DNA from: Bacteroidales bacterium
GTDB lineage: Bacteria > Bacteroidota > Bacteroidia > Bacteroidales > UBA932
Direction of reading: 5' to 3'
DNA length: 32,617 bases
NCBI GenBank assembly: GCA_028708215.1
Contig: JAQVZL010000014.1
Location: forward strand, 1-32,617
Shown here: piece after piece, positions 18,607-26,090 of the stretch
Position numbering within the stretch: position 1 is the stretch's first letter
How the letters are laid out: each line of letters begins with the position of its first letter
The notes under the pieces: generated by a model
Told to the model about the DNA's origin: nothing
What the model saw: the letters and a program-made list of their open reading frames with translations, nothing else
Database searches by the model: none
Made by a program: the position numbers and the translations under genes

Positions 18607-20103
18607 ATGGCAAATATCTTTAATGAAGTTTCTAGAACTTTCAACGAATATCTTATAATCCCCGGATTAACAACAAAGGAGCACACTCCAGATGGGGTCT
18701 CTTTAGTTACACCTTTGGTGAAATTTAAAAAAGGCCAGAAGCCTAAAATTTCACTGAACGTCCCTTTTGCTTCGGCAATAATGCAATCTGTTTCTGATAG
18801 TAACTTAGCAATAGCATTGGCTAAAGAGGGTGGAATTTCATTTATTTTTGGCTCTCAGCCTATAGAAAACCAGGTAAAAATGGTGCATGAGGTAAAAAAA
18901 TATAAGGCGGGGTTTGTAGAGAGCAGAGCCAATATTTCTCCTGAAAGCACTTTAGCAGATTTGCTAGCACTTAAAAAAGAGACAGGTTTCTCTACAACAG
19001 GAGTTACAGATAATGGTTCTCCTACTGGCGTTCTGAGGGGTTTGGTTACAAGTAGAGATTACAGAGTAGATGTAGACCCTTTAGATAAAAAAGTTAAAGA
19101 GTTTATGACTCCTTTCGAGAAGCTTGTTACTGCAAGAGATGGTGTGACCTTAACCGAGGCCAACGATATTATTTGGGACAATAAATTAAATACTTTACCA
19201 ATTATTGATAAAAACAACAAATTAAAATATTTTGTTTTTCGTAAAGATTACGATAGTCATAAAGAGAACCCCAATGAGCTCCTAGATGCAAATAAAAGAT
19301 TAATTGTTGGAGCTGGAATTAACACTAAAGATTATAGAGAGAGGGTTCCGGCATTAGTAAAGGCAGGAGTAGATGTAATGTGTATTGACTCTTCAGATGG
19401 TTTTTCTGAGTGGCAACAAGAGACTATTGCTTTTATAAGAGAGAATTATGGGAGTGATGTTCTGGTTGGAGCAGGAAATGTTGTAGATAAAGATGGGTTT
19501 CTCTATTTGGCCGAGGCTGGTGCCGATTTTGTAAAAGTTGGTATTGGAGGAGGCTCTATCTGTATTACCAGAGAGCAAAAGGGAATAGGCCGAGGCCAGG
19601 CAACTGCTTTAATTGAAGTTGCTAAGACAAGAGATAAGTACTTTAAAGAGACTGGTGTTTATATTCCTATCTGCTCAGATGGAGGTATTGTTCAAGACTA
19701 CCATATGACGCTAGCATTAGCTATGGGGGCAGATTTTTTAATGATGGGCCGTTATTTTGCACGTTTTGATGAGAGCCCTTCAAGAAAGATGATAGTTGGG
19801 GGTAGTTATGTAAAAGAGTATTGGGGAGAGGGTTCTAACAGAGCTCGTAACTGGCAACGTTACGACATGGGAGGAAAAAACAGTCTTAAGTTCGAAGAGG
19901 GAGTAGATAGCTATGTACCTTATGCAGGAAAACTTAAAGATAATCTAGAGATAACTCTCGGGAAAATAAAATCTACTATGTGCAGTTGTGGTTTAACTAC
20001 ATTGCCAGATTTACAGGCCAATGCAAGAATTACTATGGTATCTTCTACTAGTATAATAGAGGGTGGAGCCCACGATGTAATTGTTAAAGATGTGAACAAT
20101 TAA
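18607..20103 (+). CDS. guaB: IMP dehydrogenase, Tritrichomonas-like type
   Basis: This enzyme oxidises IMP to XMP with NAD+, the committed step of GTP synthesis. The 498-residue product has the (beta/alpha)8 barrel interrupted by a CBS pair at about 105-225. The catalytic loop reads [13 protein letters not shown] with nucleophile C319. The mobile flap carries the Arg-Tyr dyad in NWQRYD (R418, Y419). The start motif [11 protein letters not shown], the long stretch around SSDGFSEWQ and the numbering of C319, R418 and Y419 coincide, by recall, with the enzyme of the protist Tritrichomonas foetus. The usual bacterial GuaB instead has GPGSICTTR. It is transcribed from its own promoter and ends 9 nt before the asnA leader promoter region. 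All catalytic residues are present. Confidence 0.95.
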
Positions 20104-20111
20104 TTTAAATT

Positions 20112-20143
20112 GTTGGATATTTAAAATATTAGTTATACTTTCG
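20112..20143 (+). promoter_or_regulatory. Promoter of the asnA leader transcript
   Basis: GTTG at 20112-20115 is 20 bp upstream of TACTTTCG (20136-20143), one mismatch from TAnnTTTG. Transcription would begin near 20150, about 17 nt before the leader-peptide ATG at 20167. The -33 to -7 spacing is ideal. Confidence 0.6.
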
Positions 20144-20166
20144 TAGTTAGATAGAAACACAGTAGA

Positions 20167-20244
20167 ATGATAAATCTTAACAATAATCTTCTTAATAACA
20201 ATCTGAATAATAATCATATTCGGGCTGGGAGATTATTGCATTAG
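20167..20244 (+). CDS. Asn-rich leader peptide of the asnA attenuator
   Basis: A 25-codon frame with ATG at 20167 and TAG at 20242. Asparagine occupies positions 3, 5-7, 10-12 and 14-16, so 10 of 25 residues, with leucines between the runs and a C-terminal tail HIRAGRLLH. It lies 78 nt upstream of asnA, whose product makes asparagine, and is followed by a strong terminator hairpin. This is the layout of the trp and his leader peptides with the end-product amino acid of the downstream enzyme. The ribosome would stall here when charged tRNA-Asn is low. It is too short for routine gene callers. Translation is inferred. Confidence 0.8.
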   Translation: MINLNNNLLNNNLNNNHIRAGRLLH

Positions 20245-20264
20245 ATAGACTAAATATTAATGTT

Positions 20265-20300
20265 AAATAGCCTCCCAATCTTTGGGAGGCTATTTTTGTT
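20265..20300 (+). terminator. Intrinsic terminator of the asnA attenuator
   Basis: AAATAGCCTCCCAA (20265-20278) and its exact complement TTGGGAGGCTATTT (20282-20295) form a 14-bp perfect stem with a 3-nt TCT loop, followed by a T-rich tail ending TTGTT. It lies 23 nt before the asnA ATG and is on the same strand, so it acts as a premature terminator for asnA. It could not be the guaB terminator alone, because it lies downstream of the asnA promoter. Confidence 0.9.
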
Positions 20301-20322
20301 ATAAACTATAAGCAACAAAACT

Positions 20323-21330
20323 ATGATTAACGTACAAATGCTAGAAACCGAAGTTGCAATCTCTTTTGTTAAGGAGAGATTTGCAGAGCATCTCTGCCAG
20401 AATTTAAACCTTGTAAAGGTATCGTCTCCTATTGCAGTGCTTGATGGAACTGGTATTAACGATGAGCTTAATGGAGTAGAGCGCCCTGTCTCTTTTCCTG
20501 TGAAAGCTTTAGGTGGGCAGCAGGCCCAAGTGGTTCACTCTCTAGCAAAGTGGAAAAGGATTAGATTAATGGATTTAGGAGTAGAGAGAGAAAAGGGCAT
20601 TGTAACAGATATGAAGGCTTTAAGACCAGATGAAGAGTATACAAATTTACACTCTGTTTATGTAGATCAATGGGATTGGGAAAAGTGCATGAGTGAGTCT
20701 TGTAGAACTTTAGATTATTTGAAAACTGCTGTTAATTTAATTTATAAGGCTATGAAGTGTACTGAGCAAGAGGTTTATAAAGCCTATCCAGATATAGAGC
20801 CTGTTTTACCTGAAAATATAAAATTTATTCACTCTCAGGAGCTTTTAGATGAGTACCCGCTTTTAACTCCAAAAGAGAGAGAGAGGGCAGCCTCTATTAA
20901 ACATGGGGCTATTTTTATTATTGGGATAGGGAATAAGCTCTCTAAGGGAGAACCTCACGATGGCCGTGCTCCCGATTACGACGATTGGAGTACCCTTAAT
21001 GAAGATGGATATTATGGATTGAATGGAGACATTATTGTTTGGCACCCTACTTTGGAGTGTGCTCTTGAACTCTCTTCAATGGGTGTTAGGGTAAATAGAG
21101 ACTCTTTAATGCGCCAGCTATCTCTAAAGAGGTGTGAAGAGAAAGCAGGTCTTCATTTTCATAAGATGTTGCTTTCTGGGATGCTCCCACAAAGTATAGG
21201 TGGAGGGATAGGCCAATCTAGAATGTGTATGTTTATGCTTAAAAAAAGACATATTGGAGAGGTTCAAGTAGGAATATGGTCTCAAGAAGAACGTGTTAAA
21301 ATGAGAGAGACAGGAGTAGTGTTGCTGTAG
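20323..21330 (+). CDS. asnA: Aspartate-ammonia ligase (asparagine synthetase A)
   Basis: AsnA makes asparagine from aspartate, ammonia and ATP in the cytoplasm. The 335-residue product is close to the 330 residues of the E. coli enzyme. It is related to the catalytic core of class II aspartyl-tRNA synthetases. Recognisable blocks are SSPIAVLDGTGINDELNG, FPVKALGGQQAQVVHSLAKW, LHSVYVDQWDWEK and the motif-3-like GGGIGQSRMCMFML. No glutaminase domain is present, which separates it from AsnB. It is preceded by its own promoter, an Asn-rich leader peptide and an attenuator, which predict induction during asparagine limitation. The MBL-fold gene follows after 56 nt. Confidence 0.97.
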   Translation: MINVQMLETEVAISFVKERFAEHLCQNLNLVKVSSPIAVLDGTGINDELNGVERPVSFPVKALGGQQAQVVHSLAKWKRIRLMDLGVEREKGIVTDMKALRPDEEYTNLHSVYVDQWDWEKCMSESCRTLDYLKTAVNLIYKAMKCTEQEVYKAYPDIEPVLPENIKFIHSQELLDEYPLLTPKERERAASIKHGAIFIIGIGNKLSKGEPHDGRAPDYDDWSTLNEDGYYGLNGDIIVWHPTLECALELSSMGVRVNRDSLMRQLSLKRCEEKAGLHFHKMLLSGMLPQSIGGGIGQSRMCMFMLKKRHIGEVQVGIWSQEERVKMRETGVVLL

Positions 21331-21386: not shown

Positions 21387-22040
21387 ATGCTAGCTGTTAA
21401 GAGCTTTGTTTTCAATAGTATGAGTCAAAATACATACATTGTGTGGGCTCAAAATAGAGAGTGTGTTATTGTAGATGCGGGCTGTAACTCAGAGCTAGAG
21501 CAAGAGCAGCTTAAAGAATTTATTTATGGTAATAACTTAAAGCCTTTAGCTCTATTACTTACACACGGCCATTTCGATCATATTTTAGGAGCTGCTTTTA
21601 TTTGCAAGGAGTTTAATATTGAGGCGTGGCTGCATAAAGAAGATGCAATAGAGTTATTAACAGCACAAAAGAGTGCTTCTATTTACAATGTTAATATGAT
21701 TCACCCTTTTACTAAATCTCACAATCTTTTTGAAGAGAATATAGAGTTGAATTTTGGTACTATTAAAGTGGAAGTAATGCATACTCCTGCACATTCAGAA
21801 GGCTCTGTCTGCTTCTATTTTCCTTCAGAGAAGTTGTTGTTTTCGGGGGATACTATTATAAAGGGAGGGCTTGGGTTTTCTAATAATGGATATGCTTCTT
21901 TAATTGAAATTTTGAAGCAGAAAATTGTGAGACTTCCTAAGGAGACTAAAATTTATTGTGGTCATGGAGAGCCAACCTCTCTTAAGGAGGAGTGTGAAAG
22001 TAACCCTTTTTTTAAAATTATGCTCAAACAAATCTCATAA
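21387..22040 (+). CDS. Metallo-beta-lactamase-fold hydrolase (glyoxalase II-like)
   Basis: The 217-residue cytoplasmic protein has the metal-binding motif THGHFDH at residues 59-65. Further ligands follow in MHTPAHSEGSVCFY, in FSGDTI (bridging Asp) and in YCGHGEPT (last His). Members of this small, single-domain group (about 210 residues) are often annotated as hydroxyacylglutathione hydrolase-like, but Bacteroidota often lack glutathione, so the substrate is open. It lies 56 nt after asnA without a clear promoter or terminator between, so it may be cotranscribed. It converges with the ketoreductase gene, leaving 16 nt between stop codons. Confidence 0.88.
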   Translation: MLAVKSFVFNSMSQNTYIVWAQNRECVIVDAGCNSELEQEQLKEFIYGNNLKPLALLLTHGHFDHILGAAFICKEFNIEAWLHKEDAIELLTAQKSASIYNVNMIHPFTKSHNLFEENIELNFGTIKVEVMHTPAHSEGSVCFYFPSEKLLFSGDTIIKGGLGFSNNGYASLIEILKQKIVRLPKETKIYCGHGEPTSLKEECESNPFFKIMLKQIS

Positions 22041-22056: not shown

Positions 22057-22761
22057 TTATATTCCCATCCAATGGCCTCCATTTGTCTCTATTACAGTTC
22101 CATTAATGTAAGAGGAGTCTGGGTTGCAAAGGAAACGAACCACCTTTGCTACATCTTTAGGAGAGCCCAGTTTGCCAACTGCATTTAGTTGTTTTATCTG
22201 TTCTTCGGTTACACTACCCATACGCTTTAATGTTCCAGAGTTAATACTTCCAGGAGCAACGCAGTTGCTTCTTACTCCTTTTTTCCCATATTCTGCAACA
22301 ATTGCTTTAGTGAAAGCCTCCATATATGCCTTAGAGCCAGCGTATATTGCTTGACCTCTATATACTTTTTTAGCTGTTACAGAAGAGATGTTTATTATAT
22401 TTCCTCTTCTATTAATGCACATCTTAGGAATTACGGCTTGAGTTATTTTAGTAAATGCAACTATATTTATTTGAATTGTTTTGTTTAGAGACTCGCTTGT
22501 AATATAGGGAATTAGGTTAGTATCGGTAGAAGCTGCAGCATTTACCAATATCTCTACATCTCCAAGTTTAGAAATAAAAAAATCTAGCTCACTATTAGAG
22601 GAAAAATCGGCAGAGATTATTGTAGCTCTCTCTTCCCACTCTTTGAGGGCTTCTCTGTTTTTACTGCAGTGCAAAATCATTGGTTTATCTAATACTGAAA
22701 GCTCTTTAGTTATTGCTAAACCAATGTCTGAACTCGCTCCTGTAATTACAATATGTCCCAT
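22057..22761 (-). CDS. 3-oxoacyl-ACP reductase-like SDR (ketoreductase of the acyl/polyene cluster)
   Basis: The 234-residue product is a classical short-chain dehydrogenase/reductase. It has the cofactor motif TGASSDIG (7-14), the NAA motif (74-76), and catalytic S127, Y140 and K144 in YAGSK. The FabG-like C-terminus includes VAPGSINSGTL and an ending with INGTVIETNGG. It would reduce the beta-keto group on the ACP-bound chain to a hydroxyl. It is the last gene of the six-gene minus-strand operon, 11 nt after the ketosynthase. The context makes a dedicated ketoreductase more likely than the housekeeping FabG. Confidence 0.9.
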   Translation of the reverse strand: MGHIVITGASSDIGLAITKELSVLDKPMILHCSKNREALKEWEERATIISADFSSNSELDFFISKLGDVEILVNAAASTDTNLIPYITSESLNKTIQINIVAFTKITQAVIPKMCINRRGNIINISSVTAKKVYRGQAIYAGSKAYMEAFTKAIVAEYGKKGVRSNCVAPGSINSGTLKRMGSVTEEQIKQLNAVGKLGSPKDVAKVVRFLCNPDSSYINGTVIETNGGHWMGI

Positions 22762-22772
22762 ATTATTAAAAC

Positions 22773-23978
22773 TTATTCATATTTTTTAATTATAAGTGCA
22801 GTGTTTTCACCTCCAAATGAGGAGTTTAATTTTAATATATAATTGATTGGAATAGATAGTGGTTTCTCTTTTATTACATAAAGAGGTGCATGGGGGTCTT
22901 GTTCAGAAAAATTAATTGTAGGTAATACAACTTGGTTTTGAATTGAGTAGATAACACCCAGCATTTCCATTGCTCCACAGGAGCCTATCATATGGCCTAT
23001 TTGCCCTTTTAATGAGTAAACAGGGAGCTCTTTCACTCTCTCTTTAAATATTTGCGCAAGAGCTTTATATTCTGCGGGGGCATTTTTGTAGGTGCCAGTC
23101 CCGTGAAGATGTACACAATCTATCATTTCTGGAGTAATTGAGGCGCTTTTAAGAGCGTTTGAAATTGCTCTGGCTAGAGATTTTGCAGAAGGGTCTGGGT
23201 CTGTTACTGCATAGGCATCCATAGTAGAAGCATAACCAGCAATTTGTGCAATTATTTTCTCTTGTTTTACTTTTTTGCTATTTTCTAACAGTATTACTAT
23301 GGCACCCTCTCCTAATATAGTTCCACTCCTGTTTTTATCAAAAGGTTTACAGATATATGGAGCTTCACCCTCTTTTGCGGTGGCCATTGCTCCTAAATTG
23401 TAAAATCCCAGATAGTTTATTTGATTTACCATGGAGTCTGCTCCTCCAGTTATTACTGCCTCTTTTATTCCCCTGTTCACCATCTTATATGAGAGCCCAA
23501 TAGCCTGAGTAGATGCAGCACAAGCTGCTACAAAAACATTACACCCTCCTTTGATGTTGTTTTTTGCTGCTATCTCTGTAATTTGCTTGTTACTTTTATA
23601 ATGAGAAGGTAGGTGAGCTGTTTTTGGATATGTAAACTCTCTATTTTTATATAAGTTTTCTATATCTACATAGTCTAGCCCGCTTCCAATATTCATTGCA
23701 ATTTCCGAGGGATTATACTTTTTATCAAATGAGGTAGAGTTTCTTAATTCGGTAGTAATTTGGTCTAAGAAAAAATTTTTGCGATCTATATTTGGCTCTG
23801 TAATTACTACTTTGCCGTTACACCTAATCTCTCCCGCTGCCGTTGTCTGGAAACCAGCTGTGTTAAAGTTTTCAATAGTACTAATACAACGTTTTCCTAA
23901 TTCTATGTTTTTCATGCACTCCTCTAGAGTACATCCTAATGGAGATCTAACTTTGATTGATGTAATTACAACTGCCAT
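22773..23978 (-). CDS. Beta-ketoacyl-ACP synthase (FabF/type II PKS KS-alpha-like)
   Basis: This 401-residue protein condenses an acyl chain with a malonyl-type extender on ACP. The complete catalytic triad is present: nucleophile C153 in VAACAASTQAIG, H292 in HLHGTGTYKNAP and H329 in KGQIGHMIGSCGAME. The family elements GGADSMVNQ and PFDKNRSGTILGEGA are also intact. Sequence around the Cys (AACAAST) differs from the housekeeping TACATSTH, which fits a specialised ketosynthase of a secondary pathway. It begins 6 nt after the Cys-less ketosynthase-like gene, an arrangement seen for KS/chain-length-factor pairs. Elongation function is well supported; chain length and starter are unknown. Confidence 0.92.
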   Translation of the reverse strand: MAVVITSIKVRSPLGCTLEECMKNIELGKRCISTIENFNTAGFQTTAAGEIRCNGKVVITEPNIDRKNFFLDQITTELRNSTSFDKKYNPSEIAMNIGSGLDYVDIENLYKNREFTYPKTAHLPSHYKSNKQITEIAAKNNIKGGCNVFVAACAASTQAIGLSYKMVNRGIKEAVITGGADSMVNQINYLGFYNLGAMATAKEGEAPYICKPFDKNRSGTILGEGAIVILLENSKKVKQEKIIAQIAGYASTMDAYAVTDPDPSAKSLARAISNALKSASITPEMIDCVHLHGTGTYKNAPAEYKALAQIFKERVKELPVYSLKGQIGHMIGSCGAMEMLGVIYSIQNQVVLPTINFSEQDPHAPLYVIKEKPLSIPINYILKLNSSFGGENTALIIKKYE

Positions 23979-23984
23979 TATAGA

Positions 23985-24566
23985 CTATTTAAAGTTGTGA
24001 AATTGTCTAAAAAAATTGATAGCCTCGCTATTAGAGTCTAACATTCTGTGGTTTTTGAGTTCATAAGGTAGTAGTATGCCAAAACCTGCTTCGGCAGTGC
24101 CGTTTACATGAAGTTTTCCTGCTCCTATATAGACCTCTTTATCTGTATCTGCTAGAAGTGCCGAGTAGAGGAGCCCCGAAGCAGATCCTAAAAGGGCAGC
24201 ATTATCTCCTTTTAGCCCATATTCAATAGAGATAAAACAGTGAGCCATATTTCGCATCATTTTGAAATGAGATAGAGGAGAAATAGAGGGTACTGCTATT
24301 TTTATGAAATCGTGAGTAGTAAATGGGATTCTCTTTTGATCAAAAGCTATACATGCATCTCTATAGTAATCCATCATTTCACTTTCTGAATTAGAGAAGA
24401 AGAAAGGAGTCTCTTCAGACACTTCTTGGCCCTTAAGAAGTAATCCAGTGCATACTACTGCAGCCATTGTATCTCGTGTATAATATTTAACAAGCTTCCG
24501 TTTTCTTACGAAATCATAGACAGGAATATCTTCTTTAGGGAGGTATTTTTTGTATATTATTCTCAT
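23985..24566 (-). CDS. Ketosynthase-like protein lacking the active-site Cys (chain-length-factor-like)
   Basis: I place the start at ATG 24566, 2 nt after the dehydratase stop, giving 193 residues; the longer frame to 24698 would run inside the dehydratase gene. The segment KMMRNMAHCFISIEYGLKGDNAALLGSASGLLYSALL resembles the N-terminal half of beta-ketoacyl synthases (the 'beta-ketoacyl synthase, N-terminal-like' group of aryl polyene clusters). The nucleophile region, normally TACATS, reads LLGSASG with no Cys, and the C-terminal half carrying the two His is absent. It probably pairs with the intact KS just downstream to set chain length. The homology is judged by eye and should be read as moderate. 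Confidence 0.6.
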   Translation of the reverse strand: MRIIYKKYLPKEDIPVYDFVRKRKLVKYYTRDTMAAVVCTGLLLKGQEVSEETPFFFSNSESEMMDYYRDACIAFDQKRIPFTTHDFIKIAVPSISPLSHFKMMRNMAHCFISIEYGLKGDNAALLGSASGLLYSALLADTDKEVYIGAGKLHVNGTAEAGFGILLPYELKNHRMLDSNSEAINFFRQFHNFK

Positions 24567-24568
24567 TG

Positions 24569-25039
24569 TTAAGAAATAATCTTTGCGTTTTGAAATGCTT
24601 TTTCCATTAGTCTTTTTGCTTGTTCTTTCATTTGAGCATCCATAATGTCTACAAAACCAAACATTAGTTCCCCCTCGGCACAAACTTTTCCTTCGCATGT
24701 TGCTGTTACGGCTACTACAGCATATTCATCTGGGTAGAACACCTTAATATCTGCTCTATATGTTAGACAATCTCCGGGAACAACCATTCGTCTATATTTC
24801 ATTCTATTAACCAAGGTGAGAGCAGCTCGTTTTTGGCTAAGATTTTGTTGAACTATCATATACTCAAAGAATAGTCCAGATATTTGTGCTAGCCCTTCTA
24901 AAATAAGAGATCCTGGGAATATTGGGAAACTAGGAAAATGTTCATTGAAAATATCGTCGCTCATAGAGACACATTTGCGCCCTATAACATATTTACCTAG
25001 GAATGCTTCATCTATACGATCTACCAAATAGAATCTCAT
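24569..25039 (-). CDS. FabZ-like 3-hydroxyacyl-ACP dehydratase (hotdog fold)
   Basis: The 156-residue product carries the FabZ signature EHFPSFPIFPGSLILEGLAQ at about 33-52. Catalytic H34 is in NEHFP and the acidic partner is E48 in ILEGLAQ. A hotdog-fold strand pattern follows (MKYRRMVVPGDCLTYRADIK). It would remove water from the 3-hydroxyacyl-ACP made by the SDR, leaving a trans double bond. There is 2 nt between its end and the chain-length-factor-like gene, and 2 nt from the ACP gene, so the three are tightly coupled. No enoyl reductase is nearby, so double bonds are probably kept. Confidence 0.87.
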   Translation of the reverse strand: MRFYLVDRIDEAFLGKYVIGRKCVSMSDDIFNEHFPSFPIFPGSLILEGLAQISGLFFEYMIVQQNLSQKRAALTLVNRMKYRRMVVPGDCLTYRADIKVFYPDEYAVVAVTATCEGKVCAEGELMFGFVDIMDAQMKEQAKRLMEKAFQNAKIIS

Positions 25040-25041
25040 GG

Positions 25042-25419
25042 TTATTTGTCTTGAGAGTTAATTTTTCTTTCAATAAGTACTGCAAAGTCTCTAATGGTAA
25101 ATGATTCAAATAGGTCTTTTACAGATTGCCCCTCTTCAAATTTAGACGTCTTAAAATCTTCATTCATTTTGGCTGCAATTTCTGCTGTTATTTTACCACC
25201 TTCTAGGTTGTCTACTTGAGCTGAATATTCTGTAAGGGCTATCTCTTGAATTTTAATTTTAACTCCAAATTGAGTTTCTATCATATAGAGGATCTCTACA
25301 AAATCTATACTCTCTGCTCCAAGATCTTTAACCAGAGATTTCTCTGGCCCCAGCTCTTCAATGGTTTGAATGCCTAAAATTGGCATTAAAATTTCTCTAA
25401 GTTTATACTCTATGTTCAT
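25042..25419 (-). CDS. Acyl carrier protein, extended (125 residues)
   Basis: The N-terminal part is a standard ACP: LVKDLGAESIDFVEILYMIE holds the phosphopantetheine serine (S37). Helices II and III follow. The protein is about 45 residues longer than a typical ACP of about 80. An inserted charged segment lies at about 66-100 before a final helix (IRDFAVLIERKI). It would carry the growing chain for the neighbouring ketosynthase, reductase and dehydratase. The gene is 22 nt after the nitroreductase and 2 nt before the dehydratase. No phosphopantetheinyl transferase gene is in the window, so activation would rely on a cellular one. Confidence 0.88.
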   Translation of the reverse strand: MNIEYKLREILMPILGIQTIEELGPEKSLVKDLGAESIDFVEILYMIETQFGVKIKIQEIALTEYSAQVDNLEGGKITAEIAAKMNEDFKTSKFEEGQSVKDLFESFTIRDFAVLIERKINSQDK

Positions 25420-25441
25420 AGTTTATTGTTTAATAAAGATA

Positions 25442-26020
25442 TTAATTGTTGCAGTATCCAACGGGTATTATAGATCCAATTAACCTTCCTGTGGGTAGTT
25501 TTAAAATTTGGGCAAGCTCTTCTTGAGCTAGCAGAGGGCCTGTCATATAACATGAGTTAAGCCCCAAGCTCTCTGCAGCAAGTATTAGTAGCATAGATAC
25601 ACAAGAGATAGATTTAACCGAATTGTCTCTTTCCCACAGCAACATCTCTGGGGTAATATTATCTTTTAAAATAGACTGTATAGTTGGCGAAATACGAAAT
25701 ATTGGAATGAAAATAACAGGAGCTTTGTTAAAGAAGGTGAAGTTTTTACTGTAGTTCTTAAAGAGAAAAGAGAGATCTTGGTCCATTTGATCACTAATAT
25801 TCTCTATTGAAGAGATTACTGTTTTTGACATCAATTCAATAATTGGCTTCTCTCTTATTACAATCACCTCCCAGTTCTTTCTACCGTTTGCATAGGGAGA
25901 TTTATGTGCAATATTTAGAATTTGCTCAATACACTCCTCTGGGAACATATCTGGCTTGAAGCTCCGGCAACTTTTCCTAGTTTCGCATATAGATTTAAGA
26001 ACTTCGTATTTCTTCTCCAT
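25442..26020 (-). CDS. Nitroreductase-family flavoprotein
   Basis: I chose ATG 26020 (192 residues) because the longer frame begins at a GTG at 26062 with no better context. The FMN-binding start ETRKSCRSFKPDMFPEE and the KNWEVIVIR strand are typical of nitroreductase-family proteins. So is the C-terminal segment ILAAESLGLNSCYMTGP with a final IGSIIPVGY. Members are NAD(P)H-dependent FMN oxidoreductases, and some act as tailoring oxidases in natural-product pathways. It is the first gene of the acyl/polyene operon, so a redox step on the product or its starter is likely but inferred. It might instead be unrelated and only share the promoter. Confidence 0.86.
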   Translation of the reverse strand: MEKKYEVLKSICETRKSCRSFKPDMFPEECIEQILNIAHKSPYANGRKNWEVIVIREKPIIELMSKTVISSIENISDQMDQDLSFLFKNYSKNFTFFNKAPVIFIPIFRISPTIQSILKDNITPEMLLWERDNSVKSISCVSMLLILAAESLGLNSCYMTGPLLAQEELAQILKLPTGRLIGSIIPVGYCNN

Positions 26021-26090
26021 AGAGTTGTTTGAGTAGGTTTTTAATGTGGGTTTTACTTTCACTAAGATATAATTTTTTTACTTTTTATCC

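Follow-up and report, generated by a model that had tools for sequence, protein, structure and literature searches.

The short region that separates the IMP dehydrogenase (IMPDH) and asnA genes of a Bacteroidales bacterium raises the question of whether asparagine synthesis can be controlled by a leader peptide rich in asparagine codons. In an earlier note on this DNA (the whole stretch of 32,617 nucleotides analysed here, contig JAQVZL010000014.1 of assembly GCA_028708215.1, is called the window), the region was read as a four-segment attenuator of the trp/his type. The present analysis supports that reading through the recurrence of the frames, terminators and pairings in relatives. We put at roughly 0.88 the probability that the leader is an asparagine-specific transcription attenuator of the classical, ribosome-mediated type, that is, an RNA switch that probably turns asnA on when asparagine is low.

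Anatomy of the asnA leader region

The features of the locus are the following.

20113-20143, + strand: promoter-like site, with TTG at 20113-20115 and a Bacteroidota -7-like TACTTTCG at 20136-20143
20167-20244, + strand: leader peptide frame MINLNNNLLNNNLNNNHIRAGRLLH, 25 codons, 10 of them Asn
20181-20192, + strand: segment 1, Asn codons 5-7 plus Leu codons, partner of segment 2
20203-20223, + strand: nested hairpin P1b, arms 20203-20209 and 20217-20223, inside an 8-bp hairpin
20226-20238, + strand: segment 2, putative partner of either segment 1 or the terminator left arm (antiterminator)
20242-20244, + strand: stop codon TAG of the leader frame, from sequence reading
20265-20278, + strand: segment 3, the terminator left arm, from sequence and folding
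20282-20302, + strand: segment 4, the terminator right arm (20282-20295) followed by a T-rich tail
20323-21330, + strand: asnA, aspartate--ammonia ligase (ammonia-dependent asparagine synthetase), TIGR00669

The sequence agrees exactly with the frame described in the earlier note, with Asn at positions 3, 5-7, 10-12 and 14-16, and the hairpin behind it is indeed a perfect terminator of 14 pairs with a 3-nt loop and a T-rich run (-20.7 kcal/mol). The two competing pairings proposed there could also be reproduced: 1:2 (20181-20192 with 20227-20238) consists of 12 contiguous pairs, two of which are G-U, and 2:3 (20226-20237 with 20266-20277) of 11 out of 12, one of them G-U, the remaining position being an A-C mismatch. 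To these we add the P1b hairpin. The downstream gene encodes, as claimed, the maker of the counted amino acid, since its product scores 389 bits against TIGR00669 (cut-off, 292.8). The leader region of the window holds one attenuator cassette only. The promoter-like site was recognized by TAnnTTTG, which we take to be the Bacteroidota -7 consensus, and a motif scan scored at least 5/6 within 60 nt upstream in 22 of 24 leaders, as compared with 53% of shuffles, which lends weak support to a promoter at this position.

The IMPDH gene (18607-20103, + strand) lies directly upstream of the leader. Starting 56 nt past asnA there is a gene for an MBL-fold hydrolase (21387-22040, + strand), for which the best model, hydroxyacylglutathione hydrolase, and all the others among the 25 models listed stay below their cut-offs, and which is possibly co-transcribed with asnA. 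A run of minus-strand genes follows (22057-26062), which by eye resemble genes for ketoacyl synthase, reductase, dehydratase, acyl carrier protein and nitroreductase and may form an aryl-polyene-like set.

The source genome (1.9 Mb, 112 contigs) encodes AsnS and AsnA. For AsnB, TIGR01536 gave one match at E 4e-7 and none above the cut-off among the matches listed for this genome, where the sole PF00733 (Asn_synthase) match is an MnmA-like protein; GatB was not found in the genome, which is rated 90% complete. By these gene searches AsnA appears to be the only asparagine route seen in the source genome, and charged tRNA-Asn would be a sensible signal for its control.

The leader compared with shuffled and recoded sequences

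None of 5000 dinucleotide shuffles of 20104-20322 contained a short frame with 10 Asn codons, the shuffle maximum being 8, and the second-best Asn count among the 677 short frames of the whole window (10-40 codons, both strands) was 6. Folding of the leader RNA gave a z of -4.7 against shuffles, 0 of 200 being equally good. Taken alone, the 1:2 pairing was equalled by none of 200 shuffles; it was also equalled by 206 of 5000 synonymous recodings (4.1%) and is thus partly a by-product of the Asn codons. The 2:3 pairing alone is modest, with 15 of 200 shuffles equally good, and its strength comes from the relatives rather than from the window by itself.

Ribosome position and folding of the leader RNA

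In the attenuator that we propose, RNA polymerase would begin near 20149, a start site that is a guess, and a ribosome would translate the Asn-rich leader. With Asn-tRNA charged, this ribosome would get to the stop codon at 20242 and cover segment 2, the 3:4 terminator would form and transcription would stop near 20300. When charged Asn-tRNA is scarce, the ribosome would stall at one of the 10 Asn codons and keep segment 1 unpaired, and the free segment 2 would pair with the terminator left arm, letting the polymerase continue into asnA. Folds with the ribosome masked fit this scheme. For RNA reaching 20281, the antiterminator probability was 0.99-1.00 whichever of the 10 Asn codons the ribosome occupied, and 0.00 when it was placed at the stop. 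Without a ribosome, the same model, which describes equilibrium folding without kinetics, also gave 0.99, because 2:3 (-20.4 kcal/mol) and 1:2 (-19.4 kcal/mol) are nearly equal in energy. Since this ribosome-free fold resembles that of the stall, repression of untranslated RNA would depend on folding order, with 1:2 forming first, and only the ribosome at the stop codon separates the states in this model. When the full RNA was folded with no ribosome, with one at Asn 7 and with one at the stop, the terminator prevailed each time, so that the choice must fall during RNA synthesis, as in known attenuators.

It could be argued that asnA is controlled by some other route, be it a T-box-like RNA, a protein of the AsnC/Lrp type or Rho, and that the Asn frame plays a minor part. 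One AsnC/Lrp-family protein is in fact encoded elsewhere in the genome, on another contig; in the window asnC is not adjacent to asnA, whose neighbours are IMPDH upstream and the MBL-fold hydrolase. No Rfam family reached its gathering score in the window. For T-box there was no match in the window at that score and none with an E of 0.1 or less in six leader loci, and no Rfam amino acid leader family was above its gathering score in the window or in those six loci. A laxer scan of the six loci returned a single weak match, that of Phe_leader (RF01859) to relative L160 at 415-517 (35.8 bits; gathering score, 55), where, unlike in Phe_leader, the codons are Asn; the five other loci had no match. 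These scans lead us to reject a T-box or a known Rfam leader, and, as regulation would need no more than the repeated Asn codons and an intrinsic terminator, we give the alternative route little chance of being the right explanation and keep the Asn-specific attenuator as the preferred one.

Occurrence in relatives

A family search found an asnA match in 80 of 199 genomes, including 14 matches beside the window with an AsnA at least 60% identical. Upstream DNA was available for 13 of these relatives, near copies (L002/L003 and L009/L010) included, and in all 13 asnA was preceded by an Asn-rich frame and a terminator; the fourteenth, L008, has 50 nt upstream only and is outside this count. We then applied a fixed leader test, which asked for 5 or more Asn within 14 codons and, behind them, a hairpin and T run. 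From the 86 asnA match rows of the family search it took the 69 with at least 200 nt upstream, of which 15, counting the window, were positive; adding L327-L329, which have no more than 4 Asn per 14 codons, made this 15 of 72, and 13 family rows (partial genes or fragments) lie outside the test. Seven of 77 named GTDB loci were positive (77 of 80 had at least 200 nt upstream), namely the Hymenobacter and Solirubrum loci L072-L075 and L077, the Bacteroidales MAG L082 and Mesonia L136. So were 4 of 22 phylum-sample matches: the window, two that on the AsnA tree are Hymenobacter-like, and L230, which is distant.

Six of the eight named loci with at least 60% identity (L071-L077 and L082) carry the leader. 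L071 has none though its AsnA is 65% identical to that of the window, and L076 has a weak candidate of 4 Asn codons only. In L226 (Sphingobacteriaceae), whose AsnA is identical to that of L076, we noticed MSNIYNSLLNYPCNLAGS, with 4 Asn in 18 codons, followed by a terminator; it is a possible weak Asn leader with a 2:3 pairing no better than chance. A further leader was recognized by eye in L069, where a mismatch in the terminator makes it fail the fixed test.

The fixed test was negative in 54 of 69 family, 70 of 77 named and 18 of 22 phylum-sample asnA loci, and it found nothing in 730 shuffled asnA upstream regions. The idea of an element general to Bacteroidales is rejected, the leader being absent from most of the asnA loci examined in that order. 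The comparison across Bacteroidales put forward in the earlier note came out in favour of its reading as regards the recurrence of Asn-rich frames and terminators before asnA. The leader also exists in Hymenobacteraceae and in a small number of further Bacteroidota lineages, sometimes in doubled form. Both the Asn codons and the pairings recur in relatives, and the lack of conservation that the earlier note named as a refutation was not observed.

A covariance model extended the search. Within the window's genus, its matches were Asn leaders in 18 of 25 genomes (E 5.2e-9 or better), 8 of the 18 belonging to the training set of the model and one, G199, having a contig that ends with no asnA seen. 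Across the phylum, 102 of 395 genomes had a match. Two of the 29 locus-bearing phylum matches outside the window stand before asnA (E 1e-14 and 8e-14), and the remaining ones inspected are leaders that serve other amino acids, simple terminators or ambiguous cases. As the Ile-rich leader L183 scores 66.6 bits, the model is unspecific below about 67 bits.

The recurrence with asnA bears on a second explanation, according to which the hairpin is the terminator of the upstream IMPDH gene and the Asn-rich frame a product of chance in AT-rich DNA. IMPDH does end at 20103 on the same strand, and from there to 20265 no other strong terminator hairpin was seen. The shuffles, however, never gave 10 Asn codons, and IMPDH is upstream in the window only, being found in 0 of 20 other leader loci whose upstream DNA was examined and where genes of several kinds take its place; leader and terminator therefore stay with asnA. 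Moreover, such a frame and terminator were found in 0 of 80 asnB and asnS loci (30 asnS, 30 asnB-family and 20 more asnB-family hand-picked, from many more matches). On the shuffles, these controls and the differing upstream genes we reject this explanation as very improbable.

Conservation of the pairings

Pairs were counted on 12 of 17 aligned leaders; L006, L007, L010 and L012, whose right arm was staggered by MAFFT, and the divergent L082 were excluded. For 1:2, P1b and 3:4 together, 84.8% of cells were paired as compared with 39-59% when the structure was slid, and for 2:3 the values were 83.9% and 37-58%, the slid control being in both cases biased toward a structure derived from one of the alignment's rows. 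In the first set 8 pairs showed changes on both sides, with P1b contributing two of its 7 pairs. Its covariation score was equalled by 1 of 500 within-column shuffles, while the count of pairs changed on both sides was reached by 30 of 500 and that of further pair types by 124 of 500. Covariation of 1:2 and 3:4, which the earlier note had proposed to look for, was thus found as compensatory changes, also in the nested hairpin. As to 2:3, the pairing is kept in relatives and 3 pairs are changed on both sides, although its covariation alone does not exceed that of within-column shuffles (over five measures, the observed value was attained by 30 to 149 of 500).

Single-leader tests covered 26 of 29 leaders, with near relatives among the 26. 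L181, L182 and L004b were dropped, the last having no terminator by script, though one of 7 bp was found, and the start codon of L230 was chosen by hand. In 21 of the 26, no more than 5 of 200 shuffles equalled the 2:3 pairing (the exceptions were L001, L050, L136, L241b and L226). The same held for 1:2 in 16; this pairing was weak in the other 10, among them L082, where it is absent and 192 of 200 shuffles were equally good. The mean 2:3 duplex energy in 25 leaders was -14.2 kcal/mol for native and -10.3 kcal/mol for swapped partners (Wilcoxon p 2e-5, over leaders that are non-independent); swapped partners were about as good as native ones for L007, L050, L077 and L241b.

L072, L073 and L077 carry an additional base that puts segment 2 into another reading frame, and the bases of segment 2 are kept, as expected if this segment works at the RNA level and the Asn run alone at the peptide level. 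In the alignment, 86 of 110 Asn codons are still Asn and the residue is retained at 105 of 162 other codons, figures to which misalignment leaves little weight. That the peptide or the short terminated RNA acts in trans, as a small protein or sRNA, asnA expression being read-through only, is hardly credible: the short transcript would often be made and a trans-acting leader peptide is reported elsewhere (PMC7298713), but the C-terminal part lies in a different frame in these three loci and the peptides diverge outside the Asn run, so that a conserved peptide function is unlikely.

Evolution of the leader and tandem arrangements

The AsnA tree had 131 rows, with L326 and L226 included and L008, L092, L107 and L142 (less than 200 nt upstream) excluded. 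Its 28 leader rows require 5 changes, at least 2 of them forced by well-supported branches; without the long-branched L230 there are 4 changes, 2 of them forced. One group of 33 rows contains 24 leader rows and brings together the window's relatives, Hymenobacteraceae, L082 and L136. A second group is placed among leaderless AsnA and consists of L326 (behind leader L050), L166 and L167, two of the three being from the window's genus. L230 stands apart with an unsure placement. This distribution indicates that leaders are present in at least two separate AsnA lineages.

Of 24 leader loci, 6 have, in series with the first leader, another Asn-rich frame that is followed by a terminator of its own:

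L002, L003 and L004: NNNNNNNRPPP, L002 and L003 being near copies
L168: NNNNNNGSPP
L082: MINLNINNRNNSPPLSPV
L136: MKKSINNNNNNNST, the first frame having 5 dispersed Asn

The tandem scan flagged 7 of 24, and L013 was excluded because its second frame overlaps the first terminator and asnA and has no terminator of its own. The simplest guess is that the second attenuator makes a two-step gate. In a wider form, Asn-counting attenuators would be recurrent before asnA in Bacteroidota, having reached at least two AsnA lineages by transfer or by arising anew, and several lineages would have two unlike Asn attenuators in series, with the polymerase passing two independent Asn tests; we hold the chances of this whole proposition to be about even. 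If the serial gate is real, the response would be steeper or wider in range than that of one leader-peptide attenuator.

Relation to known systems

Leader-peptide transcription attenuators of the trp/his type are known from Proteobacteria. The asnA leader is like them in its short frame rich in codons for the product, its mutually exclusive segments 1-4, its intrinsic terminator and the biosynthetic gene downstream. It differs in counting Asn, in belonging to Bacteroidota, in the second serial cassette of some relatives and in a stop codon just past segment 2, so that a ribosome at the stop hides segment 2. The asnA gene of E. coli is under AsnC and the asparagine genes of Firmicutes are under T-box control; these systems share with the asnA leader the gene or pathway and an asparagine-linked control, whereas their sensors are a DNA-binding protein or an RNA that binds uncharged tRNA directly.

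Closer in phylum and in proposed mechanism is Flavobacterium psychrophilum, for which PMC9723704 describes leader-peptide attenuation upstream of amino acid operons, with pheA and hisG among the structured 5' elements; asparagine is not mentioned in its main text. For Actinobacteria, PMC1262725 describes codon-specific leader peptides for trp, ilv, leuS and cys found by comparison, with terminators for most and not for cys. The comparative evidence is alike and the phylum differs, and the main text of that paper has no word starting with asparagin or asn. The authors of a 2010 survey (PMC2965389) state that, to their knowledge, until they came upon a case in bacilli no such attenuator had been shown beyond Proteobacteria and Actinobacteria. 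The attenuation mechanism is of a known type, and leader-peptide attenuation in Bacteroidota is not in itself new (PMC9723704). No published Asn leader peptide was found in the open-access literature, and within that literature the Asn specificity and the tandem layout look new.

The asnA leader would add asparagine to the amino acids sensed through leader-peptide attenuation and would mean that Bacteroidota have well-developed attenuators of the classical type. With one and the same enzyme preceded by a single leader, by two in tandem or by none, the loci form a natural series for testing what a serial attenuator contributes and for learning how often such devices arise or move. The leader could also serve as a reporter of Asn starvation for Bacteroidota.

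Other amino acid leaders in Bacteroidota

Several other leaders were noticed in the window's genus. L170, L174 and L175 (about position 1506, reading strand) have a His leader (HHHH) with a terminator, followed by a gene that is hisG-like by eye, the 64-residue fragment of L174 having no family match. A Tyr-rich leader, NSLYYYYHR, with a terminator is found in L176 (1493), with a near copy in L179. The gene after the L176 leader belongs to the tryptophanase/tyrosine phenol-lyase family (PRK13238, 578 bits), and it is odd to see a codon-counting leader ahead of a normally catabolic enzyme. L178 (1506) has a Trp-containing leader, VWWWL, before a trpE-family gene, and L180 (about 1500) a Phe/Tyr leader, FFYYYFFY, before an aminotransferase gene.

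In other Bacteroidota, Ile-rich leaders with terminators were seen in L183-L186, L195-L198, L200 and L203; the gene after that of L184 matches threonine ammonia-lyase IlvA, and that after the leader of L196 matches dihydroxy-acid dehydratase models. Further leaders are Met/Cys-rich before PAPS reductase (L187), Cys-rich before uroporphyrinogen-III C-methyltransferase (L188), Ile/Thr-containing before an aspartate kinase family gene (L194) and Cys-containing before a cysteine synthase family gene (L207).
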